Of a DNA stretch of 46,492 nucleotides, positions 16,220 through 46,482 are shown one piece after another (within the stretch, counting starts at the first letter, position 1; each line of letters begins with the position of its first letter). The stretch is from Chloroflexota bacterium (GTDB lineage: Bacteria; Chloroflexota; Dehalococcoidia; Lucifugimonadales; JADFKI01). The stretch spans positions 1 to 46,492 of the forward strand of contig VXNZ01000013.1 in NCBI GenBank assembly GCA_009840355.1, read 5' to 3'. The notes below the pieces were generated by a model that saw only the letters and a list, made by a program, of their open reading frames with translations, was not told where the DNA came from and searched no databases. The translations under genes were made by a program, and so were the position numbers.

Positions 16220-18328
16220 ATGCTGTCATTTGCCAATTGGGCGCGCTTTGCTCTCCCCCTAACGCTGCTTCTCGTCGTGGCGGCTGTCGCCTGCTCGAAC
16301 GAGCCGGTCGAGGTCGTCAAGACTGTCGAAGTCATCAAAGAAGTAGAAGTGCCAGTCGAAGTGGAGAAGATCGTCGAGAAGGAAGTGGAAGTGCCCAAGG
16401 AGGTCGAGGTAGAGAAGATAATCGAAGTGGAGAAGATTGTCGAAGTCATGACGGAGCCGGAACCATCCGACGACGATGATTCTACCGCAGGACCACCCAT
16501 CTACCAGATGGGCTTGTTCTCCGAGCCGATTACCAGAAATTACTGGAACTTCTACGGCGGACCGGGTGGTTCGGTGTGGACGGGTTATGTGCTGGCAGGC
16601 AATACTGCATCGCTCTACGGCTACTCCGACCAGCGCTTTGACTGGGTGCCGGTCGTCGCATCCGACTTCCCGACCGAGCTTACCAAAGAAACGGTGAACG
16701 GCACTGAACTTTGGACTGCCGAAGTGCCGCTGAAAGAAGGCATCCAGTGGAGCGACGGCGAGCCGATGACGGCGGACGATTTCGTCTTCACAGTGAACAC
16801 CGTGCTCGACATGCAGCTCGGCGCGGACTGGGGAAGCGCCGTTGATCGCGCATTTGTCGAAGGCGTGGAGAAGATCGACGACCATCGCGTCAAGGTATTG
16901 TTCAAGGCGATGGACGACGAAGGCAATCCACAGACACCAGGCTTGAGCGTATGGCAGTTCGGGCTGGGCTTTATGCCGATAATGCCGGAACATTACTGGA
17001 GTCCGGTTATTGAAGATGTGAAGGCACTGGACAATGTGCAGCAGAGCATCGAAGCGCTGTTCGCCTATGTGCCGGACGGCGAGCCTACTGCCGGCGGATT
17101 CGTATTTAGCAAGTGGGAACCAGGCGCATTCTTCGAGAACGATGCCGACGTCAACTATAGCTGGAAAGGGGCTGTAGTCACCGAGTATGCCAACGGCGCG
17201 TACTCCGAGACTATCCCGAATATCGGCTACGAAGCGTCATTCTACGGCGAGCCTGGAGGAGATAAGACACTTGAATACGAAATCGGTCCGCATGTGGACA
17301 CCGCTCTGTTCAGCATATACGGCAACCAGGACGCGGCGATTCTCGCGCTGACCAACGGCGACATTGACTACCTGTTCAACCCGCTCGGCGTGGAAAAGGG
17401 CTTTCAGGATCGCATCCGCGCGGCTGATGACCTGTCTATCGTCACCAACGCGGACAATGGCATGTTCTACATGGGCTTCAACACGCGCAAGGAGCCGATG
17501 AGCTACAAGGGCTTCCGTCAGGCGATAGCGACCATCATCGACAAGGAGTTCGTATCACAGACCGTGCTGCAAGACTCCACCATTCCGATGTACTCAGTCG
17601 TGCCGGAGGGCAACGCGTTCTGGCACAACGCCGATGTGCCGCAGTTGGGCAAGGGAATGACCCGCACCGAGCGCTTGGAAAAGGCAGTCGCGCTGCTGAA
17701 AGAAGCCGGATTCACCTACGAACAAGAGCCACAGATGAGCGAAGACGGCAATTTCGTCGAAGTGCAGGCGCAAGGGCTGCGAATGCCGGACGGTTCGGAA
17801 ATGCAGCCAATCGAAATTATTGCGCCAAGCCCGGGCTATGACCCGCTGCGCGCGACATTCGCGATATGGATAGAGCGCTGGCTGAACGACCTCGGCATAC
17901 CGGCGCGCGCCAATCTCGTCGGCTTCAATGTGCTGGTGGCTGAGCTATTCAGCGACACCGTGCAGGAAGACTTGGACATCTGGATTCTGGGCTGGGGTCT
18001 GTCGCTGTTCCCAGACTATGTGGAGAGCTTCTTTCACTCTCGCCACGCACCGGAGAACGAAGAGGGCGGCCACAACTGGGGCGGTTATGCCAATCCGGAA
18101 TTCGACGACTTGTCGTTCTCGCTGCTGTCCGAGACTAGCGTCGATGAGGCACGCGACAAGATGTTCCGCATTCAGGAAATGCTCGCGGACGACCTGCCGT
18201 ACATACCGCTGTTCACGATACCCAAGCTGGACACATACCGTCCATCTAGGGTCGAGTATCCGTACACAACGGTGTTTGGTGGGCTGACCGGCTTGGGCGG
18301 ATTGCAGACGGCGGCGCTGATAAAGTAA
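16220..18328 (+). CDS. Peptide/opine-type ABC transporter substrate-binding lipoprotein (SBP_bac_5 family)
   Basis: 702 residues. The N-terminal signal has a lipobox-like AVAC with Cys25. A roughly 50-residue Val/Glu/Lys linker of VEV and VEKI units (about 29-78) and an acidic segment (DDDD) precede the family 5 solute-binding fold (about 95-690). The fold contains LKEGIQWSDGEPMTADDFVFT and a later FNTRKEPMSYKGFRQAIA. It is probably lipid-anchored at the outer membrane face, with the linker lifting the binding domain off the membrane. It is the first gene of a five-gene importer; the ligand may be a peptide, opine or oligosaccharide. Confidence 0.9.
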   Translation: MLSFANWARFALPLTLLLVVAAVACSNEPVEVVKTVEVIKEVEVPVEVEKIVEKEVEVPKEVEVEKIIEVEKIVEVMTEPEPSDDDDSTAGPPIYQMGLFSEPITRNYWNFYGGPGGSVWTGYVLAGNTASLYGYSDQRFDWVPVVASDFPTELTKETVNGTELWTAEVPLKEGIQWSDGEPMTADDFVFTVNTVLDMQLGADWGSAVDRAFVEGVEKIDDHRVKVLFKAMDDEGNPQTPGLSVWQFGLGFMPIMPEHYWSPVIEDVKALDNVQQSIEALFAYVPDGEPTAGGFVFSKWEPGAFFENDADVNYSWKGAVVTEYANGAYSETIPNIGYEASFYGEPGGDKTLEYEIGPHVDTALFSIYGNQDAAILALTNGDIDYLFNPLGVEKGFQDRIRAADDLSIVTNADNGMFYMGFNTRKEPMSYKGFRQAIATIIDKEFVSQTVLQDSTIPMYSVVPEGNAFWHNADVPQLGKGMTRTERLEKAVALLKEAGFTYEQEPQMSEDGNFVEVQAQGLRMPDGSEMQPIEIIAPSPGYDPLRATFAIWIERWLNDLGIPARANLVGFNVLVAELFSDTVQEDLDIWILGWGLSLFPDYVESFFHSRHAPENEEGGHNWGGYANPEFDDLSFSLLSETSVDEARDKMFRIQEMLADDLPYIPLFTIPKLDTYRPSRVEYPYTTVFGGLTGLGGLQTAALIK

Positions 18329-18340
18329 AGCAGCCAACAC

Positions 18341-19489
18341 ATGGCAAAGTACATACTGAAAAGGCTGGCGCAGATACTGCTGACGCTATTCGTCTTCCTG
18401 TCCATCGTGTTCTTCATCGTGAATGCGCAGCCGGGCGATGTGAGCAACACATACGCGCTCAACCCTGACCTGCCGCCCGAGACACGCGAGGAATTGCGAG
18501 AACTGTTCGGTGTCAACGAACCGCTATGGAAGCAGTATCTGCGGCATGTGAGCAACACGCTGACCGGCAACTTCGGCGTGTCGTTCAGCCACTACCCGCG
18601 CAGCGTGTCCGATGTCATCGCTGAACGGCTGCCGCGCACACTGGTGCTGTTCATCACCGCATCCGTGATTTCGTTCTATTTGGGCTTCGGGCTAGGCAAG
18701 ATAATCGCTTGGCGTAGGGGAACATGGACAGAGTACGCGTCCACGATAAGCGGCGTTACGCTTTACACCGTGTTTACGCCGTGGTTCGGGCTTATGATGA
18801 TATGGCTGTTCGCATTCAAGGCGGGCTGGTTCCCCATAGGCAAGTTTCTCGATCCCGTCTTATGGCGGGACTCGCCGATTGACGCGAACACGGTGTTCAA
18901 CCGCATGATAATCACCGCCATCGTGCTGTCCATCGTGGTGTTTCTGGCCTTCCTGTTCACCACGCAGCGACGCGTGCGAAATGCGCGGCTGATACAGGTT
19001 GGCGCAATCGCCGTCGCGACAGCCGCCATCGCGGGCGTGTGGATGGCGAGCGGCGTGAGCCACCTCGCGTTCGACATCGTGAAGCACATGGCGCTGCCCG
19101 TAATCACGCTGACGCTCATCAGCTTCGCCGGCACGATGCTGCTGACGCGCAATAGCATGCTTGAGACGATGCGCGAAGACTATGTGCTGGCGGCGCGCGC
19201 CAAGGGCTTGCCAGAAAATCAGGTGCGAGACAAGCATGTGGCACGGAATGCGCTGCTGCCGGTCGTTACCAGCTTCGTATTCAGCCTTGCGTTCGCCATA
19301 GACGGCGGCGTCATCATCGAATCTATATTTTCCTGGCCCGGCATGGGACAGACGCTGGTCGCCGCCGCCGTGTCCGAAGATTTGCCGCTTGCCGTTGGCG
19401 CGTTCGTGTTCGTGGGCATATTCGTGCTGGTGGCGCATCTCGCCGCGGACATTCTATATGTATATCTCGACCCCAGAATCAGGTATTAG
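18341..19489 (+). CDS. ABC transporter permease (DppB/OppB type)
   Basis: 382 residues, longer than the usual 310-340. MAKYILKRLAQILLTLFVFL is the classical first membrane helix. The N-terminal periplasmic part holds LFGVNEPLWKQYL. The cytosolic EAA loop reads ARAKGLPENQVRDKHVARNALLP. An extra segment of about 45 residues with two hydrophobic stretches (roughly 190-240) sits between the conserved core helices and explains the length. It starts 12 bases after the binding-protein stop. Confidence 0.9.
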   Translation: MAKYILKRLAQILLTLFVFLSIVFFIVNAQPGDVSNTYALNPDLPPETREELRELFGVNEPLWKQYLRHVSNTLTGNFGVSFSHYPRSVSDVIAERLPRTLVLFITASVISFYLGFGLGKIIAWRRGTWTEYASTISGVTLYTVFTPWFGLMMIWLFAFKAGWFPIGKFLDPVLWRDSPIDANTVFNRMIITAIVLSIVVFLAFLFTTQRRVRNARLIQVGAIAVATAAIAGVWMASGVSHLAFDIVKHMALPVITLTLISFAGTMLLTRNSMLETMREDYVLAARAKGLPENQVRDKHVARNALLPVVTSFVFSLAFAIDGGVIIESIFSWPGMGQTLVAAAVSEDLPLAVGAFVFVGIFVLVAHLAADILYVYLDPRIRY

Positions 19490-19494
19490 CAGCC

Positions 19495-20454
19495 GTGCAG
19501 AACACACCGCACACCAGTGACGCCCCGGCATACACGGACTCTGTGTGGAAGGCGCGCGTCATCTTGGCAACGCGCACCGTCCGGCAAAATTGGTCTATCT
19601 TCATTGGGACGCGGGTCGGCTTGATAGGCATTGTCATCATCGCATTCTACGCACTGCTCGCGCTGTCCCACCCACTTCTGATGAACACCGTCTGGGAGCC
19701 GAGCGTGTACGACCCGGTTGTCGGCTATTCGTTCGACGAAGTGCGACAACCCGCGCCGCCTAGCCGGACGCACCTGCTCGGCACGGATCCTCTCGGCAGG
19801 GACATACTGAGCCAGCTGATGTTCAGCGCGCGCGCGGAGTTTCTGCTCGGCTTGCTCGCCGCCATAGTTACCGTGACCATAGGCACGACCGTGGGCGCGG
19901 TGGCGGCGTACTTTGGCGGCGTCGTGGATATGCTGCTGATGCGGCTCGCGGACATAATGATAATGATGCCCGGCATCAGTGTGCTTATCGTGCTGAGCGC
20001 GCTGATTGGCGTTGAACACTTCGAGCTTGCGCTGATTATCGGCATACTTTCCGGCTTCGGCGGCACGGGCGTTGTGCTGAAATCGCAGGCGCTGTCCATC
20101 GTCGTCAAGCCGTACATCGACGCGGCGCGAATCGCGGGCGGGGGGCCATTCCACATTATCTTCGTGCATATTGTGCCGAACCTGCTGCCGCTGTCGTTCC
20201 TGTACATGATGTTCACCGTAACCGGCGCGATATTTTCCGAGGCGATACTCAGTTTCCTAGGCTTGCTGGATGTGCGAATGAGCTGGGGCTTGATGATTCA
20301 CACGACCGAATCGGCGGGCTACCTGCTGCAAGTAACCGAATACTGGTGGCTGATATTCCCCGCGAGCCTTTCGATTACGCTGCTATGCTCGTCGTTCTAT
20401 CTCGTCGGGCGCTCGCTTGACGAAGTGGTCAACCCAAGGTTAAGGCGCACATGA
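19495..20454 (+). CDS. ABC transporter permease (DppC/OppC type)
   Basis: 319 residues from GTG 19495. It has the hallmark HLLGTDPLGRDILSQL before the permease core and an EAA loop AARIAGGGPFHIIFVHIVPN. Six membrane segments are expected. It forms the heterodimeric channel with the preceding permease. Its stop overlaps the ATG of the following ATPase gene (ATGA, 20451-20454), which implies coupled translation. Confidence 0.92.
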   Translation: MQNTPHTSDAPAYTDSVWKARVILATRTVRQNWSIFIGTRVGLIGIVIIAFYALLALSHPLLMNTVWEPSVYDPVVGYSFDEVRQPAPPSRTHLLGTDPLGRDILSQLMFSARAEFLLGLLAAIVTVTIGTTVGAVAAYFGGVVDMLLMRLADIMIMMPGISVLIVLSALIGVEHFELALIIGILSGFGGTGVVLKSQALSIVVKPYIDAARIAGGGPFHIIFVHIVPNLLPLSFLYMMFTVTGAIFSEAILSFLGLLDVRMSWGLMIHTTESAGYLLQVTEYWWLIFPASLSITLLCSSFYLVGRSLDEVVNPRLRRT

Positions 20455-21467
20455 CGCAGACAGCGAATCAGCCGCACAACGACAATAGCGACGACCGCAA
20501 CACCGGCAGCCGCGCGCTCTTGCAAGTGGAAGACTTGACCATGAGCTACTACACGCGGCAGGGAGAAGTGCGAGCTGTGGACGGCGTGTCGTTCTCGGTA
20601 GAACGCGGGCAGGGGTTCGGGCTCGTCGGAGAATCGGGCTGCGGCAAGTCGTCCATCGCGCTCAGCCTGCTGAAGATACTGCCGGAGAGCGCCCGAATAT
20701 CGGCAGGCAGCATAGTGCTAGACGGACTTGACCTTGTGCCGCTGTCCGAAGACGAAATGCGCGAATACCGATGGGCGCGCGTGTCGATGGTCTTTCAGGC
20801 GGCGATGAACTCACTCGATCCCGTGTACCGCGTCGGCGAACAGATAATCGAGGCGCTGGAGTATCATGTCGAATCCGCGCCTGCCGCGTCCGTAGAGCGC
20901 GTGCGCGAACTGTACGACCTAGTAAACCTCGACACGGCATTCATCCCGCGATACCCGCACGAATACAGCGGCGGCATGAAGCAGCGCGCGATAATCGCGA
21001 TGGCGCTCGCCTGCGAACCGGACTTAATCATCGCCGATGAGCCGACGACGGCGCTCGATGTCATCGTGCAAGACCGTATCCTGCGCGAGATGAAGAACGT
21101 GCAGCGCGAGTTGGATATGGGGATGATTTACATATCGCACGACATGGCGGTGATCGCCGAAGTGAGTGATGTGGTCGGGGTGATGTACGCGGGCAAGATA
21201 GTGGAGTTCGGCAGCGTATCCGAAATCTTCAACACGCCTATCCACCCATACACGCGCGCGCTGATGTCGGCATTCCCCAGCGTAACCGGCGAAAAGCGCG
21301 AACTGGCAACGCTCAGCGGCGAGCCGCCAAACCTGCTCGATCCGCCGTCCGGCTGCCGCTTTCACCCGCGCTGCCTATACGCAACCGAAGAGTGTGCAAC
21401 GACTGCGCCGCCGCTAGTGCAAGTGGACGAGCACTGGGCATACTGCTGGAATCCGCCGGGAGATTAG
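20451..21467 (+). CDS. ABC transporter ATP-binding protein (DppD/OppD type)
   Basis: 338 residues. Walker A GESGCGKSS (60-68), signature YSGGMKQRA, Walker B LIIADEPTTALD and switch His in ISHDMA are all intact. The C-terminal oligopeptide-transporter extension has PPSGCRFHPRCLYATEEC and a later Cys in AYCW, the four-Cys cluster typical of this subfamily. It energises the importer together with the next gene. Confidence 0.93.
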   Translation: MTQTANQPHNDNSDDRNTGSRALLQVEDLTMSYYTRQGEVRAVDGVSFSVERGQGFGLVGESGCGKSSIALSLLKILPESARISAGSIVLDGLDLVPLSEDEMREYRWARVSMVFQAAMNSLDPVYRVGEQIIEALEYHVESAPAASVERVRELYDLVNLDTAFIPRYPHEYSGGMKQRAIIAMALACEPDLIIADEPTTALDVIVQDRILREMKNVQRELDMGMIYISHDMAVIAEVSDVVGVMYAGKIVEFGSVSEIFNTPIHPYTRALMSAFPSVTGEKRELATLSGEPPNLLDPPSGCRFHPRCLYATEECATTAPPLVQVDEHWAYCWNPPGD

Positions 21468-21561
21468 CGACCTGCAAGCAAACGCAGACAGTCCATTACG
21501 GCGACAAGCATTGCATCAGTCTCAAGGCATACACTATCCGGCAAAAGACGGCAAGCGAAAT

Positions 21562-22584
21562 ATGACAACGCTCCCCCGGAAATCACACAGCAACGACGAC
21601 AGCGCTCTGTTGAAAGCAGAAGGGCTGACTAAGCTTTTCCCCGTCGAAAGCGGGAACTGGCTCAAGCGCAGCCACAGCTTCGTGCATGCCGTTGACGGGC
21701 TGAACTTCGAGCTGGGTAGGGGCGACAGCCTAGGGCTTGTCGGCGAATCCGGCTGCGGCAAGACAACGACCGGCAGACTGTTAGTGCGCCTGACCGACCC
21801 GACGGACGGACATATCATCTTCGACGACGGCGCGGGCGAACCAACGGACATCGCCACGCTGTCGGGTAAGGCGCTCAAGGCATTCCGCAGACGAGCGCAG
21901 ATGATATTCCAAGACCCATACGAGTCCATGAACCCGCGCCGCACAATCTTCGACACAGTAGCGGAGCCGCTCCGGACGCAGGGAATGGGCAATCACATCG
22001 ATCGCATGGACGCGGTGTCGCATATGCTCGAAATGGTCGGGCTGACGCCTGCGCACGCCTTCCTGTTCCGCCATCCTCATGAACTATCCGGCGGTCAGCG
22101 GCAGCGCGTCGCAATCGCGAGGGCGCTCGTCGTAGAGCCTGCGTTCGTCGTCGCGGACGAGCCTACATCAATGCTCGATGTGTCTGTCAGAACGGGCGTC
22201 ATGCGGCTGATGGAAGACCTCGCAGGCAGGCTCGGCATCAGCTACTTGTACATCACGCACGACTTGGCGGTCGCGCGCTACATGTGCGATCGGATAGCGG
22301 TGATGTATCTTGGCAAGATAGTGGAGATTGGAGAGACCGAGAGCGTGCTGCAAAGTCCGCGCCATCCGTACACGCGCGCGCTACTGTCCGCCGTGCCGGT
22401 GCCGCAGCCGGGCGTATCGCGCGCTCCGGTGAGCATTAAGAGCGGCGTTTCCGTGCCCATCGACCCACCGCCCCGCTGCCGCTTCTATGACCGCTGCCCA
22501 ATAGCCGACGACTTCTGCCGCGACAATGTGCACCCGCCGTTGGAAGGCGAAGATGCGCATTTGGCGGCTTGCTATAAGGCGTAA
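21562..22584 (+). CDS. ABC transporter ATP-binding protein (DppF/OppF type)
   Basis: 340 residues from ATG 21562; a TTG at 21511 would add 17 residues, and neither has a clear Shine-Dalgarno sequence. Walker A GESGCGKTTTG, Q-loop FQDPYESMNPR, signature LSGGQRQRV, Walker B FVVADEPTSMLD and ITHDLA are complete. The C-terminal Cys cluster is CRFYDRCPIADDFC. With the DppD-like subunit it forms the two-ATPase motor usual in peptide and nickel importers. About 95 bases separate it from the previous gene. Confidence 0.92.
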   Translation: MTTLPRKSHSNDDSALLKAEGLTKLFPVESGNWLKRSHSFVHAVDGLNFELGRGDSLGLVGESGCGKTTTGRLLVRLTDPTDGHIIFDDGAGEPTDIATLSGKALKAFRRRAQMIFQDPYESMNPRRTIFDTVAEPLRTQGMGNHIDRMDAVSHMLEMVGLTPAHAFLFRHPHELSGGQRQRVAIARALVVEPAFVVADEPTSMLDVSVRTGVMRLMEDLAGRLGISYLYITHDLAVARYMCDRIAVMYLGKIVEIGETESVLQSPRHPYTRALLSAVPVPQPGVSRAPVSIKSGVSVPIDPPPRCRFYDRCPIADDFCRDNVHPPLEGEDAHLAACYKA

Positions 22585-24632: not shown

Positions 24633-24709
24633 TGGTGGGCGATAGAGGACTCGAACCTCTGACCTCTTGCGTGTAAAGCAAGCGCTCTAACCATCTGAGC
24701 TAATCGCCC
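24633..24709 (-). tRNA. tRNA-Val (anticodon TAC)
   Basis: 77 bases with encoded CCA. Acceptor GGGCGAT pairs with ATCGCCC. The anticodon arm CTTGC-TTTACAC-GCAAG gives TAC, and the T-loop is TTCGAGT. It is first in a cluster of four minus-strand tRNAs and differs from the tRNA-Val at 25018 at only a few positions. Confidence 0.97.
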
Positions 24710-24774
24710 GTGCGGTGCGCGCCATCGAGATGTGGCGGCCTGTGTGCGGGCGGAATTGCGGTTAAAGAAGGGAG

Positions 24775-24851
24775 TGGCGCGCTTGGCGGGACTCGAACCC
24801 ACGACCTCAGCCTCCGCAGGGCTGCGCTCTATCCAACTGAGCTACAAGCGC
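24775..24851 (-). tRNA. tRNA-Arg (anticodon GCG)
   Basis: 77 bases with encoded CCA. The GCGCTTG/CAAGCGC acceptor stem is fully paired. The anticodon arm CAGCC-CTGCGGA-GGCTG places GCG at 34-36, reading CGC/CGU. Bacteria usually read this box with ACG (inosine), so this isoacceptor is unusual. Confidence 0.95.
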
Positions 24852-24892
24852 TTGAAGTAGGGACTCCTGCTGGCGAATACGGAACTTGGTTC

Positions 24893-24978
24893 TGGTGCCG
24901 AAGGAGGGATTCGAACCCACACATCCGTAAGGATACTACGTCCTGAACGTAGCGCGTCTTCCGTTCCGCCACTTCGGC
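24893..24978 (-). tRNA. tRNA-Leu (anticodon CAG)
   Basis: 86 bases with encoded CCA and a long variable arm, as expected for Leu. The anticodon arm CTACG-TTCAGGA-CGTAG gives CAG, reading CUG. Acceptor GCCGAAG pairs with CTTCGGC. Confidence 0.97.
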
Positions 24979-25017
24979 ACGCTGCTGACACTTCGCCATC
25001 CGGTCATCTGCGTCAGA

Positions 25018-25094
25018 TGGTGGGCGATGGAGGACTCGAACCTCCGACCTCTTGCGTGTGAAGCAAGCGCTCTAACCATCTGAGCTAACCGCCC
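25018..25094 (-). tRNA. tRNA-Val (anticodon CAC)
   Basis: 77 bases with encoded CCA. The anticodon arm CTTGC-TTCACAC-GCAAG gives CAC, reading GUG. Near-identical to the tRNA-Val(TAC) in the same cluster, evidently a duplicate with a changed anticodon. The acceptor has one G-U pair. Confidence 0.97.
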
Positions 25095-26657: not shown

Positions 26658-26777
26658 CGGTGAACCTCGATGCGGTAGGGAGCATCACGCGCCATTGCGA
26701 TAGGATGGGTGCAAAATAATCCCAAGTCCCATACATCACACCCAATCAATCCCGATACACAACACACGACATATCCC

Positions 26778-27668
26778 ATGAAAATCCACCTAATCGACGG
26801 CACCTACGAACTCTTCCGCGCCTATTTCGCCATGCCCAAGTCAACCGGTCCCGCCGATCAGCCGACCGGCGCGGCGCGTGGTCTATTGCAGACGCTGCTA
26901 TCATTGCTGCGCCAAGACGATGTTACGCATATCGCCTGCGCCTTCGACAGTGAGATTTTATCGTTCAGGAACGACCTGTTCGCCGGCTACAAGACGGGCG
27001 AAGACACGCCGAAGGACTTGAGGGCGCAGTTCGAGCTGGCGGAGCGCGTGGCGAGTACGCTGGGGCTGGTCGTCTGGCGAATGATGGAGTTTGAGGCGGA
27101 CGACGCCATAGCAACAGCGGCGTGCCGGTGGGCGGACGACCCCGCCGTGGAGCAGGTGGTGATGTGCTCGCCGGACAAAGACTTGGCGCAGGTCGTGCGC
27201 GGAAGCAATGTCGTGAGCCTAGACAGGCGGCGTGACCAAGTGATAGACGAAGCGGGTGTCATCGATAAGTTCGGCGTGTCGCCCGCGTCGATACCTGACT
27301 ATCTCGCGCTAGTCGGAGACTCCGCGGACGGCATACCCGGCGTACCACGTTGGGGCGCCAAATCCACCGCGCAGGTGTTGCAACGCTACAAGCACATCGA
27401 AGAAATCCCCAACGATGCTAGCGAGTGGGACATCAAGGTGCGCGGCGGCAACACATTGGCGCGCAATCTGTCCGAGAAGCGGGAATTAGCGGCGCTGTAC
27501 AAGCAACTCGCCACGCTGCGCCTTGATGTGCCAATCAGCGAATCGTTGCAATGCTTGGAGTGGCAAGGCGCAAGAAAGTCAGACTATCAAGCGCTATGCG
27601 TAGAATGCGGCTTCGACAGGTTCATAGACTCGCCGCACAAGTGGCAGGAAGACGGCGCGACATCATAA
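26778..27668 (+). CDS. 5'-3' exonuclease (DNA polymerase I N-terminal domain type), stand-alone
   Basis: 296 residues from ATG 26778; the upstream part of the frame is low-complexity and non-coding in look. LIDGTYELFRAYFA at the N-terminus, ACAFDSEILSFRNDLFAGYKTG, EFEADDAIATAA, SPDKDLAQVV and LVGDSADGIPGVPRWGAKSTAQVL show the metal-binding acids and the helix-hairpin-helix of the FEN/PIN-type nuclease. The polymerase domain is absent, so it resembles ExoIX-like or free flap endonucleases acting in primer removal and repair. A tRNA-Arg follows on the opposite strand 15 bases later. Confidence 0.88.
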   Translation: MKIHLIDGTYELFRAYFAMPKSTGPADQPTGAARGLLQTLLSLLRQDDVTHIACAFDSEILSFRNDLFAGYKTGEDTPKDLRAQFELAERVASTLGLVVWRMMEFEADDAIATAACRWADDPAVEQVVMCSPDKDLAQVVRGSNVVSLDRRRDQVIDEAGVIDKFGVSPASIPDYLALVGDSADGIPGVPRWGAKSTAQVLQRYKHIEEIPNDASEWDIKVRGGNTLARNLSEKRELAALYKQLATLRLDVPISESLQCLEWQGARKSDYQALCVECGFDRFIDSPHKWQEDGATS

Positions 27669-27683: not shown

Positions 27684-27758
27684 TGGTACCCCCGGAGGGA
27701 CTCGAACCCACGCACCTGGCTCCGGAGGCCAGTGCTCTATCCGCTGAGCTACGGGGGC
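27684..27758 (-). tRNA. tRNA-Arg (anticodon CCG)
   Basis: 75 bases with encoded CCA. The anticodon arm CTGGC-CTCCGGA-GCCAG gives CCG, reading CGG. The acceptor closes with a G1-U72 wobble. It is convergent with the exonuclease gene. Confidence 0.96.
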
Positions 27759-28239
27759 ATACCCCAAATATAGCAGTTGCCGGCTGGCATAACAAGGAAG
27801 TGCGGCAATTTAAGATTCCTCGCTCTGCTCGGAACGACAGTTTGCGATGGCTCATCATGACAATGATGGCGCGGTGAGTGGTGAAGTCGTTCAGAACCGT
27901 CCATTCACGAACCCGCCTACGATTCTACTTTGGAACGCCCGCAACTGGTTCGATCACCGACGCAGTTATGGCACACGGCGAGTCGAAACGCGGTTTCGGG
28001 GGTGTCCAAATTGAACAATCTTCAAATATCAGTTCATGAAAATGCTTGAACTTTTCGCCGAGTATGGATAGCATTGTCGTCAGTGTTAAGGGCGCAGGCA
28101 TATTCACACAGCGCGAGTTACCGATGAATGCCCGCGCACCGGCTGGAGATTGACAAAGGGTCGTCAAGGTATTGACAAGGCTACACGGCGGGACTATCAT
28201 TGCTATCGCTGTTGAGCATCGCAAAAGACGCTCGTGATG
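27759..28239. other. Intergenic region with repeat fragment, no confident gene
   Basis: A half-copy of the GTCATT...GAGCGAAG element lies at 27813-27838 (AGATTCCTCGCTCTGCTCGG). Short open frames on both strands (for example 27925-28224 minus, and a plus frame from about 27878 ending in a TGA near 28037) look partly protein-like, but I cannot assign them. Decayed coding sequence is possible. Confidence 0.4.
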
Positions 28240-28316
28240 TTGGACAGAATTGACGATAAATCTGATATACTTCGATAAATATCAAGCGTAGGACTTTTAT
28301 AAGAAGAGGGGGTCAA

Positions 28317-29237
28317 ATGACGTACCGTTTCCCTTCGCAGGGTAAAATACTTACTCTGCTGCTTTCCATCTCAGTGGTTCTTCTATTAGCGTGCACAGCA
28401 GGTCCGCAGGGTCCGCAGGGTCCCGCGGGACTTCCTGGCATTTCCGGCGCTCCCGGCTTGCCCGGTCTGCAGGGCGTTCCCGGTCTTCCGGGCATCTCCG
28501 GCCTACCCGGTAATCCTGGCAACCCCGGCAATCCTGGTCCTCCAGGTCCTGCCGGTCCTCCAGGCCCTCCGGGTCCCGCCGGTGTGGACGGCGTTTCGCC
28601 TCAGGCGGCGCTCGCTCTTGACTCCGACCTCGTATCCGTGAACGGATCGCTGACCGTAGATGGCTCCGGCTTCCAGCCGAATGAGCCGGTCGCACTGCTC
28701 CTGATAGTTGACGGGAACTTGCAGCCATTCCTAGGCGGCGGCACTCGGGCGCAGACTCAGGCGAACCCGGGAGGCAACTTCACCTTCACGGTTGATGACC
28801 TCGGCGCGGCGTTCCGTGGCAACACTGGTGCCCGTGTGATGGAAGCCTCCAACGGCGGCTCCAATAGCCTCGCAATCTACGCGAGCGGCGCAGACGGCAG
28901 CAGGGCAAGCGTGCCCATCAGGGTTGTAGGCTCCGGCGGCATTGCCTCCGCACCTAGCATTGCGCTCAGCAGTAACATCGTGGAGATTGACGGCACGGTT
29001 ACGGTTATGGTCGCAGGCTTCATGCCTGGCGAGTTCGTAACAGTCGTAGCGTCCGGTGCGTCCGGCGGCGATGACAGGGTGCTAGTTGGCGGCCCAGCCA
29101 ATAGCTTCGGCGCACTCTCACTCGACGCAGCGATAGGGCTGGATCCGGATGTGTACACCATAGAAGCGATGGGTCAGCCCGTCGGCGGTATGCAAGCATC
29201 CGTAACCGCGCCTCTGTCCGTGGTAGAAGAGAAGTAA
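28317..29237 (+). CDS. Collagen-like lipoprotein
   Basis: 306 residues. The signal peptide ends in a proper lipobox LLAC (Cys26). Then follow about 22 uninterrupted Gly-X-Y triplets (residues 29-94), many with Pro in X or Y, able to form a short triple helix. The remainder has two beta-sandwich-like halves (about 97-205 and 210-306), each opening with SD/SN-L/I-V plus a [10 protein letters not shown] or [10 protein letters not shown] type motif, as in Ig/IPT-like domains. It is probably a trimeric, lipid-anchored surface stalk with adhesive heads. Extended -10 TGATATACT lies at 28263-28271, and AGAGGGGG precedes the ATG. It carries its own terminator. Confidence 0.85.
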
Positions 29238-29272
29238 TTCCTTCCCCGCCACAACAGGCATAACGTAAAAGA

Positions 29273-29309
29273 GAAAGCCCTCCGTCAACAGAACTGACAG
29301 AGGGCTTTC
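29273..29309. terminator. Bidirectional terminator hairpin
   Basis: A 10-bp stem GAAAGCCCTC/GAGGGCTTTC plus an inner 4-bp stem GTCA/TGAC after one mismatch, loop 7. It lies between the collagen-like gene and a convergent broken gene. In the minus direction the stem runs into TCTTTT, so termination is stronger for the minus-strand gene. Confidence 0.65.
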
Positions 29310-29734: not shown

Positions 29735-31099
29735 TCACCGCTCCCGCGCCGGTACACCAACCACCAGCGCATTGTCCGGCACATCCTTAGTAACGACTGA
29801 CCCCGCGCCCGTTGACGCGCCATCCCCTACGTTTACCGGCGCGACTAGCATCGTGTCGCTGCCGATGAATGCGTTCCTGCCGATGACGGTCTCGTGCTTG
29901 GATTTGCCGTCGAAGTTGCAGGTCACCGCGCCGGCGCCGATGTTTACATATTCGCCTAGCGTGGCGTCGCCCACGTAGCTGAAATGCCCCATCTTCGTGC
30001 CGCGACCGATGCGGCTGTTCTTCACCTCAGCCGATGTGCCGATATGTACGCCGCTCTCGATGCGCGCGCCGCCACGTATGTGGCTAAACGGCCCGACATC
30101 TACGCCGGCCGCCAGCGTTGAATCGCGCACCACAGACGACAATATCTCGCAGTTGTCACCGATGGTCGCGTTCTCGATTATGGCGCTTGGCCCGATAGTG
30201 CAACCGCTGCCGATGACCGTCTCGCCCTTGATATGCGTGTTGGGCAGCACGATCGTGTCCTGCCCGATCGATACGCCGCAGTCGATGTACACGCTCGCCG
30301 CATCCGGCATAGTTACACCATCTAGCATCATACACTCGTTGATGCGGCGGCGCATTACGGCTTCAGCCTGCGCGAGCTGTGTGCGGTCGTTCACGCCCAT
30401 CGTCTCGTGCGGATCGTTCGATGCGCCGTCCGATGCGATTGATGCCACAAGCAAGCCTTGCGCCGTTGCCGCTCCGATGATGTCCGTCAGCAGAAGTTCA
30501 CCGTTCGGCGCGGGCGTCAGATTCGCAAGATTGTCCCACAGCCAGTCCGTGCGGAAGCAGTAAAACCCGCTGTTCACCTCGCTTATTGCGCGTGTCTCTT
30601 TGTCCGCATCTCGCTCCTCGACGATTGCGCGAATGCTGCCGTTATCGTCGCGCACGATGCGCCCCATGCCCTTCGGGTTTGCGACCTGCGATGTGATGAG
30701 GGTAACGACCGCGTCACTGTCGATGTGCCGTTGTATCAGAGCGGCAAGGGTCGATGCGCGAATCAGGGGAACATCGCCATAGAGCGCCAGTACATTGTCT
30801 GCGCCGCGCATCGCGTCTTGCGCCTGTAGCAGCGCGTGTCCTGTGCCAAGCGGCTCGGACTGCTTGGAAAATCGTGTCGTATTGCCCAGCGCATCGCGGA
30901 AAGGTTTATCGTCCGGCGGCACGACAAGCGTGATGTCGTCGATGCCTGCATTCCTGACGGCGCCCATTACGAGCAGCAACATCGGCCTGCCGCAGACTTG
31001 ATGCAGTGGCTTTGGCGTGCGCGATTTCATGCGCGTGCCCGTCCCCGCGGCTAAGACTACCGCGCCAAAGTTTCTTGAACGCTTGCGTGAATCAGCCAA
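29735..31099 (-). CDS. glmU: Bifunctional N-acetylglucosamine-1-phosphate uridylyltransferase / glucosamine-1-phosphate acetyltransferase
   Basis: 454 residues. The N-terminal nucleotidyltransferase (about 10-235) has VVLAAGTGTRMKS, EPLGTGHAL, LYGDVPLI and GELLLTDI. The C-terminal left-handed beta helix (about 255-454) has many hexapeptide turns, with the catalytic His in GHFSYVGD and AGAVTCNFDG. It makes UDP-GlcNAc for cell-envelope glycans. The only reasonable start is TTG 31099, because the nucleotide-binding loop follows at once. The C-terminus is slightly shorter than in Escherichia coli. Confidence 0.93.
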   Translation of the reverse strand: MADSRKRSRNFGAVVLAAGTGTRMKSRTPKPLHQVCGRPMLLLVMGAVRNAGIDDITLVVPPDDKPFRDALGNTTRFSKQSEPLGTGHALLQAQDAMRGADNVLALYGDVPLIRASTLAALIQRHIDSDAVVTLITSQVANPKGMGRIVRDDNGSIRAIVEERDADKETRAISEVNSGFYCFRTDWLWDNLANLTPAPNGELLLTDIIGAATAQGLLVASIASDGASNDPHETMGVNDRTQLAQAEAVMRRRINECMMLDGVTMPDAASVYIDCGVSIGQDTIVLPNTHIKGETVIGSGCTIGPSAIIENATIGDNCEILSSVVRDSTLAAGVDVGPFSHIRGGARIESGVHIGTSAEVKNSRIGRGTKMGHFSYVGDATLGEYVNIGAGAVTCNFDGKSKHETVIGRNAFIGSDTMLVAPVNVGDGASTGAGSVVTKDVPDNALVVGVPARER

Positions 31100-43941: not shown

Positions 43942-45453
43942 ATGCTCACAGGTATAGGACTGCGAAACTTCAAGGCATTCGGCGACGAAATGCAGGAAGC
44001 GCCGCTGTCCAAAATCACGCTGATTTATGGGCCGAACTCCGGCGGTAAGAGTTCAATTATTCAGGCGTTGCTGCTGCTGAAGCAGTCGCACGAAGGACAC
44101 TACAACCAAGGGGCGATGGAGTTAATTCCTCGTGGAAGGTACGCGGACCTAGGGAGTTTCCCTTCTCTGATACACAAGCACGATATAGACTTGGAACTTG
44201 GCATAAAGGTTGAATTTGATGCGGAGGAACGGGCACTCACACGCTCGTTACCAATTCCGACTCGTCGAAACCGTTCTTTCCGTTTCCGGAAACGCTTTAC
44301 GGAAGGCTTATCTGGTTGCGTTGACCTGATTTTTGTTGCGGAACCGTCCGACGATTCCGATAGCAAAGATTCATCAGAATTGTCGTCAGTTGGGTATAGA
44401 TTGACTCATGACTACAATGAAGGAATGGCACTCGACATTCAGTTGGAGTTGGAACGGAATTTTGCCGAGCCTTCGGACAATGGTGATTCGCTTGAAACGC
44501 CAAAATTCAACTGGCAAAATTCCGATTCTATAGATTCTTTTGCTAAGTTCGCCGCTGAAAATCTCACGTCTCTAATTCGCCATGACAGAGATGATGTGGC
44601 ACAAAATTCTATGACCCGAGCTGAATGGTCCAGTCTACTGGAAAATTCATCTGTTGAAACGGCTCTCTACGCATACGGATTACCATATACAATAAGGCCT
44701 TTCATTGAAACGGGTACATTTACACCACGTTCGAATCGACTGACAATACCTCTTATGGCAGACTATCGGTATAATATGGATAGAATCACGTACTTAGGGC
44801 CATTGCGTAGCTATCCTGAAAGGCTTTATACAGTCTCTGGTGGAGGAAGAGAATCTACAGGTATTCGTGGTGAATTCACTCCTCACATTCTTCACTATAA
44901 TCCTAGCAATGTTGTAGGAAGTGTGAATGAGTGGTTTAAGAAGTTCCGAATCTCATACGAGCTTGACACCTCACCATTGGGATCCCCCGAACTAGCGGGA
45001 GAACATATCACTATCGCACTTAAGGATGAACACACGAAAACACGTGTTACTCTTGCCGATGTAGGGTTTGGAATAAATCAACTCCTGCCTGTGATAATCG
45101 AAGGCATCGCTTCGCCGGAGGATTCGATTATCTGTGTCGAACAACCTGAGATACACATTCACCCTAGGTTGCAGGCGCATCTAGCCGATCTTATGATTGA
45201 CACCATTGCGGACGAACCCGTCAAACGCAAGCAATGGATTGTGGAGACGCACAGCGAACTGCTCATTCTGCGTCTACAGCGCCGCATCCGAGAAGGGGAA
45301 ATCAACTCCGAAGATGTTTCCGTGCTGTATGTCAATCCAGGGCAGAACGGTAGCACTATCGAAGTTCTCCGTCTTGATGAAGAAGGCGACTTTATAGATG
45401 CGTGGCCTCATGGCTTCTTTGATGAAGGTTTCAACGAACTTATGGATGCATAG
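43942..45453 (+). CDS. AAA/ABC-type ATPase of the DUF3696 group
   Basis: 503 residues. The Walker A loop YGPNSGGKSS (29-38) follows an SMC/RecF-like start (LRNFKAFGDE). A long insertion (about 55-330) holds acidic Ser/Asp-rich segments. The second half has the signature-like DVGFGINQLLPVI, Walker B ICVEQPEIHIHP and the switch His in ETHSELL. The DUF3696-type ending is EVLRLDEEGDFIDAWPHGFFDEGFNEL. Such ATPases are often the sensor/motor partner of a nuclease in defence cassettes. From about 44150 the DNA is clearly more AT-rich than its neighbours. The next gene begins nine bases after the stop. Confidence 0.85.
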   Translation: MLTGIGLRNFKAFGDEMQEAPLSKITLIYGPNSGGKSSIIQALLLLKQSHEGHYNQGAMELIPRGRYADLGSFPSLIHKHDIDLELGIKVEFDAEERALTRSLPIPTRRNRSFRFRKRFTEGLSGCVDLIFVAEPSDDSDSKDSSELSSVGYRLTHDYNEGMALDIQLELERNFAEPSDNGDSLETPKFNWQNSDSIDSFAKFAAENLTSLIRHDRDDVAQNSMTRAEWSSLLENSSVETALYAYGLPYTIRPFIETGTFTPRSNRLTIPLMADYRYNMDRITYLGPLRSYPERLYTVSGGGRESTGIRGEFTPHILHYNPSNVVGSVNEWFKKFRISYELDTSPLGSPELAGEHITIALKDEHTKTRVTLADVGFGINQLLPVIIEGIASPEDSIICVEQPEIHIHPRLQAHLADLMIDTIADEPVKRKQWIVETHSELLILRLQRRIREGEINSEDVSVLYVNPGQNGSTIEVLRLDEEGDFIDAWPHGFFDEGFNELMDA

Positions 45454-45462
45454 GTGACGAAC

Positions 45463-46482
45463 ATGCTGGTAAAGTTCGCCATTGAGCCTGATGCAATAGA
45501 CGATTCTGGTAAGGCATCTGCTCACATTAAACGCTTGGAAAAGCAGTGGGCGTACTGCGGCATTCTAGCGTTCCCTCCATTTGAGGACAGATCATCCATC
45601 CATACAAAGGTTGCAAGTTTGCAACAAGGCCCAAGCAAATCGTGGACAACATTGTGGGAGCAAGTGATCAAAAGCCGCAAAAATACGAATGCCTACCGCT
45701 GGCTTTCTATGAATGAGAAAGCCAATTTCTCTTGGGAAAAGATTCTAACGTGCGATGATTTAGGAAGGCATAGCGATAAATTCGAGGTCGCAATCGTGAA
45801 GGAATCTCGCGCGGAATTACTAGGAATACCTGACGGCGAAGGCAAGTACTGTGGCGATGTGGAAGGAATTAGATTGTCTGAAATCGACATGTCTGAAAAA
45901 TTCAAACGAGCCGAAGTCTTGGGTAAAGGACATATCGAAATCGATACATCTGTAGATGCCCTATGGAAAGAACGATTTCAGAGTCTCGCACAACATTCGA
46001 AAGATGTTGTGATTGTAGATCAACATGCTTTAGTACACGATGATAACATTGCTGGGTTGTGTCGATTCCTTAAATATCTTGATAGAGACTCTAATGGCTG
46101 CAATGTTACGATATATTCAGCCCCTAGAAAACTGCGCCAAGATAGAAAAGAAACAGTGTCTGACAGGCGAGAGAACATCAAGAAAGAACTGAAAGATATG
46201 GTTGCTTATCTCAATGCCAGCGGAATCAACAACATTGATGTACGCCTGCGTGGTCAGAAGGGTTTCAGTGTGTATGCACACGACAGACACATACGGTTCG
46301 ATAACAATATTTTCAAAATAGGGAGAGGAATGGACGTCTTCAATTTTGGAGTGGTAAAGAGACGTACAGATTTCACACACATATTGGACCACGCGGTAAG
46401 TGATAGTAAGGAATATGACTTGGGCAAAAAAGCTCACAAAATCGCCGACTTCGCCATCTCCATCGGCATGCCCACTCCCTAA
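45463..46482 (+). CDS. Unknown effector-like protein with MIT_C / PLD-like C-terminal motif
   Basis: 339 residues from ATG 45463, chosen because AGGTGA (45452-45457) lies five bases before it and overlaps the ATPase stop; GTG 45454 is the alternative. No signal peptide or membrane segment. The middle has VVIVDQHALVHDDNIAGLCR followed by VTIYSAP. The C-terminal HDRHIRFDNNIFKIGRGMDV (about 273-292) strongly recalls the HDREIRFDNG...IGRGLD motif of the MIT_C phospholipase-D-like domain of MITD1. The N-terminal 150 residues are unrecognised. Co-expression with the ATPase is implied by spacing, and the gene is AT-rich like its partner. Confidence 0.7.
   Translation: MLVKFAIEPDAIDDSGKASAHIKRLEKQWAYCGILAFPPFEDRSSIHTKVASLQQGPSKSWTTLWEQVIKSRKNTNAYRWLSMNEKANFSWEKILTCDDLGRHSDKFEVAIVKESRAELLGIPDGEGKYCGDVEGIRLSEIDMSEKFKRAEVLGKGHIEIDTSVDALWKERFQSLAQHSKDVVIVDQHALVHDDNIAGLCRFLKYLDRDSNGCNVTIYSAPRKLRQDRKETVSDRRENIKKELKDMVAYLNASGINNIDVRLRGQKGFSVYAHDRHIRFDNNIFKIGRGMDVFNFGVVKRRTDFTHILDHAVSDSKEYDLGKKAHKIADFAISIGMPTP

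Follow-up and report, generated by a model that had tools for sequence, protein, structure and literature searches.

The window, a stretch of 46,492 nucleotides, belongs to a SAR202-type member of the Chloroflexota and encodes what is probably a surface lipoprotein, in which a lipid anchor is followed by a short collagen-like rod bearing two folded heads. The gene occupies positions 28317–29237 of the plus strand, begins with ATG, and codes for 306 residues plus a stop codon. It represents a family of collagen-stalk lipoproteins that numerous genomes within one order of ocean bacteria have kept; in the NCBI taxonomy, the SAR202 cluster sits within the Dehalococcoidia. The explanation that we prefer, tentatively and while judging it short of probable, is that a trimeric stalk holds Ig-like heads off the membrane as a spacer or anchor of a surface coat.

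Domain organization

From the N terminus, the chain consists of a lipoprotein signal peptide (residues 1–26; positions 28317–28394), a collagen stalk (residues 29–94; 28401–28598), and two predicted β-sandwich heads at residues ~98–204 (28608–28928) and ~214–303 (28956–29225), all encoded on the plus strand. The signal peptide ends in the lipobox LLAC, whose cysteine is Cys26 (codon at 28392–28394). This cysteine is invariant across 24 aligned proteins, and the LspA and Lgt genes are both found in the window's own genome. Signal peptide, lipobox cysteine, and Lgt/LspA together point to a lipoprotein, lipidation itself being predicted. The original prediction had read the protein as a compact stalk-and-head design with a lipobox, 22 Gly-X-Y triplets, and two β-type domains, and all of these elements are supported.

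Collagen stalk

The Gly-X-Y run is unbroken over its 22 triplets, an extent on which the run count, the Pfam match, and the alignment of congeners all bear. Shuffling the whole protein 20,000 times gave no run beyond 8 triplets, and shuffling only the tract 20,000 times gave at most 9, against 22 observed. The Pfam Collagen family (PF01391) matches residues 29–87 with 38.4 bits, over its cut-off of 27.2, and is the sole Pfam family in the whole protein at E values up to 1. Proline occupies 8 X and 12 Y places, and the stalk contains one charged residue. By its long, unbroken, and Pro-rich Gly-X-Y run, the protein is a bacterial collagen-like protein. The stalk has a pLDDT below 50 over most of its length in a full-length monomer model, as expected of a single collagen chain.

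The repeat is maintained by selection. Across five congeners, glycine is fixed at 22/22 positions, 20 of which vary synonymously only, while amino-acid changes occur at 8/22 X and 9/22 Y positions; one congener (L036) lacks one triplet. Fixed glycines with synonymous turnover indicate that the repeat register is under selection. The dN/dS ratio of the stalk is 0.065–0.123 over six pairs, with dS above 1 in several, and the stalk is under purifying selection.

Stalk length is 17–23 triplets, with a mean of 19.9 and a standard deviation of 1.8, among 18 proteins (the window protein and 17 named loci). One of these runs, counted as 19 in L050, takes in the lipobox cysteine and has a true value of 18. 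L046, with a stalk of 18 triplets, was excluded from this count and from alignments A6 and A7 owing to an X in its translation. Loss of the run in orthologs had been named as part of what would refute the original prediction; the run is kept in the window protein and in 18 named relatives. The length is less constant in wider relatives, where runs of 10, 15, 16, and 50 triplets occur, and one-headed paralogs have stalks of 15–24 triplets.

Two other readings of the tract were set aside. An artefact of a GC-rich repeat was considered, as the antisense frame too gives a Gly/Pro-rich match; it was rejected because the sense frame has the lipobox, the promoter, and the ribosome site, matches more strongly, and is under selection at the codon level. 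The proline content of the stalk was dropped as a temperature signal because it is confounded by the GC content of the locus (r 0.55 over 19 loci).

Head domains

An AlphaFold2 model of the head region, computed from 18 aligned rows, has a mean pLDDT of 77.5 and a pTM of 0.49. Strands are predicted in both halves, at head-region residues 8–114 and 124–213, and the model suggests two tandem β-sandwiches. The halves match each other in hhalign with a probability of 98.1 and an E value of 1.1e-13 (for a single comparison), which identifies the two heads, at the level of sequence, as copies of one domain with a common origin.

In the structure comparison, the top VIA row is 6xi3, an extending-region repeat from a large adhesion protein (Z 11.3, rmsd 5.0, 187 aligned). 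Other rows include 7dm0, the C region of a biofilm protein (Z 9.6, rmsd 4.9, 159 aligned), 5n40, the adhesin InvE (Z 9.4, rmsd 5.3, 179 aligned), complement C5, and PECAM-1, and the Vibrio cholerae biofilm scaffold RbmA takes second rank in Foldseek. Many of these Ig-like neighbors are extracellular. A Z of 5 is reached by 977 of the 995 compared chains, so the match names an Ig-like fold and not a function.

The heads of the window protein match no Pfam family at E values up to 1. The best match among 18 family members has an E value of 0.0098, and Big_6 and TIG/IPT appear as weak Pfam matches in some members. A head profile compared with solved chains gives one match, titin, at E 0.87. Enzyme and carbohydrate-binding families all stay below their cut-offs in this region. 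The heads are under purifying selection, with a dN/dS of 0.026–0.210 over six congener pairs.

Relatives and distribution

A search with the head profile returned 19 loci from named genomes. Eighteen keep the lipobox, the collagen run, and two heads, and their records are assigned to the SAR202 cluster, Dehalococcoidia, or Chloroflexi. The remaining one, a Kaiserbacteria protein (L052), showed neither a lipobox nor a collagen run and was dropped from later counts to leave 18 named loci. The closest relatives of the window protein are L034–L037. The loci are related, some of them closely (L039–L043 and L046), so the counts given below do not represent independent events.

At E 1e-10, the head family is present in 71/197 genomes sampled within the order, in 39/92 genera, and in 27/93 of the better genomes; a match spanning both heads was counted by eye in 56/197. 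Across the class, the head profile matches 11/294 genomes at E 1e-12, six of which lie in the same order. With the whole protein as query, 54/60 relatives match at E 1e-3, many via the collagen part. Genes over the PF01391 cut-off of any kind are found in 132/147 genomes of the order, with 15/147 lacking one, in 51/148 genomes sampled from the class (7 of these belonging to the order itself), in 36/151 of the phylum sample, and in 3/14 control genomes; the class and phylum samples list only part of their match-free genomes. Collagen genes are thus near-universal in the order, and the two-headed family is widespread. In another family of the class (f54), one of the genomes listed has a collagen match and seven have none.

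A survey of paralogs, which had been proposed as a check, shows that no second gene of the window genome exceeds the PF01391 cut-off; one additional match, at 12.6 bits (E 0.39), falls well short of it. Other genomes carry two or three collagen genes in tandem, for example G013, G023, G024, G030, and G058. Elsewhere in the order, tandem genes for one- or two-headed collagen-stalk lipoproteins are seen at L060 (5878–8227), L024 (146–2283), L029 (641–2274), L030 (1453–3091), and L061 (2–1940).

Promoter, leader, and terminator

A consensus promoter, TTGACA-17-TATCAT, lies at 28172–28200 on the plus strand and recurs across related loci. The pattern TTGACA-17/18-TANNNT is found 115–160 bases before the start codon in 16/18 loci, against 0.008 expected from shuffles, although the position range was chosen post hoc with the hits already seen and the loci are related. 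Among the 18 loci with enough upstream sequence, the promoter is missing at L047 and L051; L041, with 58 bases upstream, was excluded from these counts. A second promoter-like element farther upstream, TTGAAC-17-TAGCAT (28046–28074, plus strand), is kept in the upstream alignment of five congeners, at the scope of the genus, and differs in L037 by one base per hexamer.

The transcript would begin with a leader of ~85–120 bases that often opens with a hairpin. A stem-loop is predicted near its 5′ end in the window (28209–28247, plus strand; z -2.17). Over 16 leaders the mean folding z is -1.69, with a range of -3.51 to +0.38 and 7/16 below -2. The leader at 28207–28316 and those of 15 related loci have similar lengths, and each has a hairpin close to where the mRNA is predicted to start; the bases of this hairpin differ between genera. 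The folding energy is moderately unusual, which is only suggestive of a structured regulatory leader, and no Rfam family matched; the hairpin may stabilize the mRNA. The ribosome-binding element AGGGGGTCA at 28307–28315 on the plus strand is identical in 16/19 loci.

The original prediction had assigned the gene its own terminator. The hairpin at 29273–29309 is real (folding z -5.39), but it is common to two converging genes. The T-rich tail accepted by the scan is on the minus strand, and with the better T-run there the hairpin serves the opposite-strand glmU gene at least as well. Strong hairpins stand at the same place in 5/5 congeners (z between -4.6 and -7.9), and those of L035, L036, and L037 are built from different bases.

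Gene neighborhood

The downstream neighbor is a glmU-like gene (29735–31099, minus strand) carrying Pfam NTP_transferase and Hexapep matches. In 17/18 testable loci, a glmU homolog is found downstream in the opposite orientation, either directly adjacent or separated by one or two genes; the exception is L047, and L038, with 738 bases downstream, was excluded from the count. Upstream lies a 5′–3′ exonuclease gene (26709–27668, plus strand), which has a homolog upstream in 12/16 loci. This count covers loci with more than 900 bases upstream and excludes L034, L041, and L042 (361, 58, and 335 bases, respectively). Promoter and gene order suggest vertical inheritance, and recent transfer or a sponge-only acquisition is not favored because both are common to distant relatives.

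A phage or prophage origin is not supported. No relative is encoded in any of 245 pattern-matched viral stretches, and the identified neighbors of the gene are cellular. The whole protein lists 25 PHROG families, including tail fibers down to E 3.2e-11, via the collagen tract. One stretch, in phrog_8745, extends to residue 207, and the heads alone give a single PHROG match at E 0.18.

Several other features of the window were noted. A tRNA-Arg gene (27684–27758, minus strand) lies between the exonuclease and collagen genes, and four consecutive tRNA genes are found on the minus strand at 24633–25094. The region 43942–46482 has a low GC content (0.46–0.47) and encodes an AAA_15/AAA_21-DUF3696 ATPase; the next gene has a phospholipase-D-like match that stays below cut-off. 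The DUF3696 ATPase matches the candidate defense models HEC-03B, NsnB, and PDC-M55A (E 2e-58 to 1e-52), and the pair looks like a two-gene anti-phage defense candidate.

Envelope context and proposed role

The PBP transpeptidase family is missing from 39/40 genomes, the window genome included (control, 10/14). The window genome has no PBP transpeptidase genes and is in this respect that of a cell with a peptidoglycan-less envelope. The lone match among the 40 genomes, G015:C25:1839-2612, is either contamination or a real exception. MurA exceeds its cut-off in 0/40 genomes, but below-cut-off relatives are present in 38/40, which makes the MurA test less clear than the PBP test. A report on cultured SAR202 states that peptidoglycan biosynthesis is not encoded and describes, for strain JH545, an S-layer-like layer seen by TEM outside the membrane (PMC10444878).

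These observations suggest the following mechanism. The conserved consensus promoter would drive the gene from its kept chromosomal place, and both the promoter and the gene order suggest steady high expression. Once cleaved and lipidated at Cys26, the protein would sit on the outward-facing side of the membrane. Three chains, each contributing 22 Gly-X-Y triplets, would then wind into a collagen rod. With a collagen rise of 0.286 nm per residue, the rod would be ~19 nm long (18.9 nm for 22 triplets), or 14.6–19.7 nm for 17–23 triplets, and would hold three pairs of Ig-like β-sandwich heads at a set height. An anchored rod of guarded length with Ig-like heads, in cells that appear to have no cross-linked wall, fits a structural job in which it spaces or anchors the surface coat.

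Lipobox with LspA and Lgt, guarded stalk, promoter, gene order, broad distribution within the order, the absence of PBP transpeptidases, the S-layer-like layer of cultured SAR202, and the often extracellular fold neighbors favor this role. Against it stand the restriction of the head family to 71/197 genomes of the order and the 15/147 genomes without collagen genes. If the collagen-free f54 genomes have S-layers, collagen is unnecessary for an S-layer. Further points against it are the tandem, partly one-headed paralogs, which resemble diversifying binders, the inconstant stalk length of wider relatives (10–50 triplets), and the MurA relatives. On balance, the gene behaves more as a conserved envelope gene than as a facultative host factor, and may encode a basic envelope part of SAR202 and not a special tool for host life. 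A bolder version concerns SAR202 as a whole, a group found throughout the dark ocean: its peptidoglycan-free envelope would be built on collagen, with an abundant lipid-anchored triple-helix rod of 15–20 nm acting as a "collagen pillar" that fixes the distance from membrane to S-layer. This version is considered improbable. Protein stalks do the same spacing job under some archaeal S-layers.

The main rival of the structural reading is adhesion, which is a possibility but not a likely one. As an adhesin, the protein would use its collagen stalk to lift Ig-like heads, which would bind particles, neighboring cells, or the matrix of a host (sponge). The stalk-and-head design and the tandem paralogs of some relatives fit such a function, as do the fold neighbors 6xi3, 7dm0, InvE, and the second-ranked RbmA, although with 977/995 compared chains at Z 5 the fold match shows no function. 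The nearest NCBIfam models are likewise those of collagen-like adhesins (SclB, Lcl, and SclA), matched in the collagen part only and far under cut-off. Purifying selection on the heads argues against an adhesin. So does the fact that relatives with a putative water-column origin, judged by the titles of their records, share this architecture (L049, "505m"; L051, "K_Offshore_120m"). The original prediction of an adhesin or host-interaction factor therefore survives in part: adhesion stays in contention, while a special host role is unsupported, given the putative water-column relatives and the kept place and promoter. Binding of a coat and binding of a host are mutually compatible.

It is unlikely that the tract is a mere extended linker, with Gly-X-Y repeats that are not triple-helical and a monomeric two-domain lipoprotein holding a ligand near the membrane. 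Stabilized bacterial collagens often use charged pairs, and the run contains just 0–2 charged residues across the five congeners. A plain linker would not need, however, a strict glycine at every third position with synonymous turnover, and the proline content at X and Y places also speaks for a collagen. Least probable is a substrate-capture carrier serving peptide-type importers, for although importer-like genes lie upstream in the window (16220–22584) and permease-like homologs occur in 9/19 loci, window included (both named by reading sequences), the gene has its own promoter, the importer is not adjacent in the window, and the heads match no enzyme or carbohydrate-binding family at cut-off.

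If true, the preferred coat-spacing role would show how cells without peptidoglycan hold their envelope together.

Comparison with known collagen-like proteins

Most descriptions of bacterial collagens concern pathogens and phages, and the tract often varies in length. The original prediction had held that they are known mainly from Firmicutes and phages; they are known elsewhere too, as the Burkholderia lipoproteins illustrate (PMC10224339, PMC4565658). These Bcc-CLPs, such as Bucl3 and Bucl8, are described there as predicted lipoproteins that combine a collagen-like tract with folded domains, so the kind of protein found in the window is already known (PMC10224339, PMC4565658). They have different partner domains (Collagen Middle, Talin-1, and OEP) and a strain-variable tract length (PMC10224339, PMC4565658). 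The window protein has instead two Ig-like heads and no Pfam family besides PF01391; the Pfam Collagen Middle region was not found in it at E values up to 1.

Streptococcal Scl1/Scl2 and Legionella Lcl also join a collagen-like tract to a globular part and supply the nearest NCBIfam models. The window protein reaches only 22.4–31 bits against the Scl/SclB/Lcl cut-offs of 325–500, in the collagen part and not as a whole protein. Scl proteins are LPXTG-anchored by the names of their NCBIfam models, and the Scl head is at the opposite end from the heads of the window protein. PF01391, though over its cut-off at residues 29–87, denotes a repeat and not a family, and is silent on function. Bacterial Ig-like modules (Big_6, TIG/IPT, and extender repeats such as 6xi3) share the predicted β-sandwich fold, but the window heads match none of their families at E values up to 1. 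Phage tail-fiber collagens resemble the protein in PHROG via the tract, whereas the window gene has a cellular setting and its heads alone give no PHROG match beyond the one at E 0.18. No description of a collagen-stalk lipoprotein from SAR202, Chloroflexi, or Dehalococcoidia was found in searches of open-licence papers. What is new in comparison with the known systems is the taxon, a head family outside the Pfam and NCBIfam families, and, in a lineage with near-universal collagen genes, the fixed chromosomal place, the conserved promoter, and the guarded stalk.
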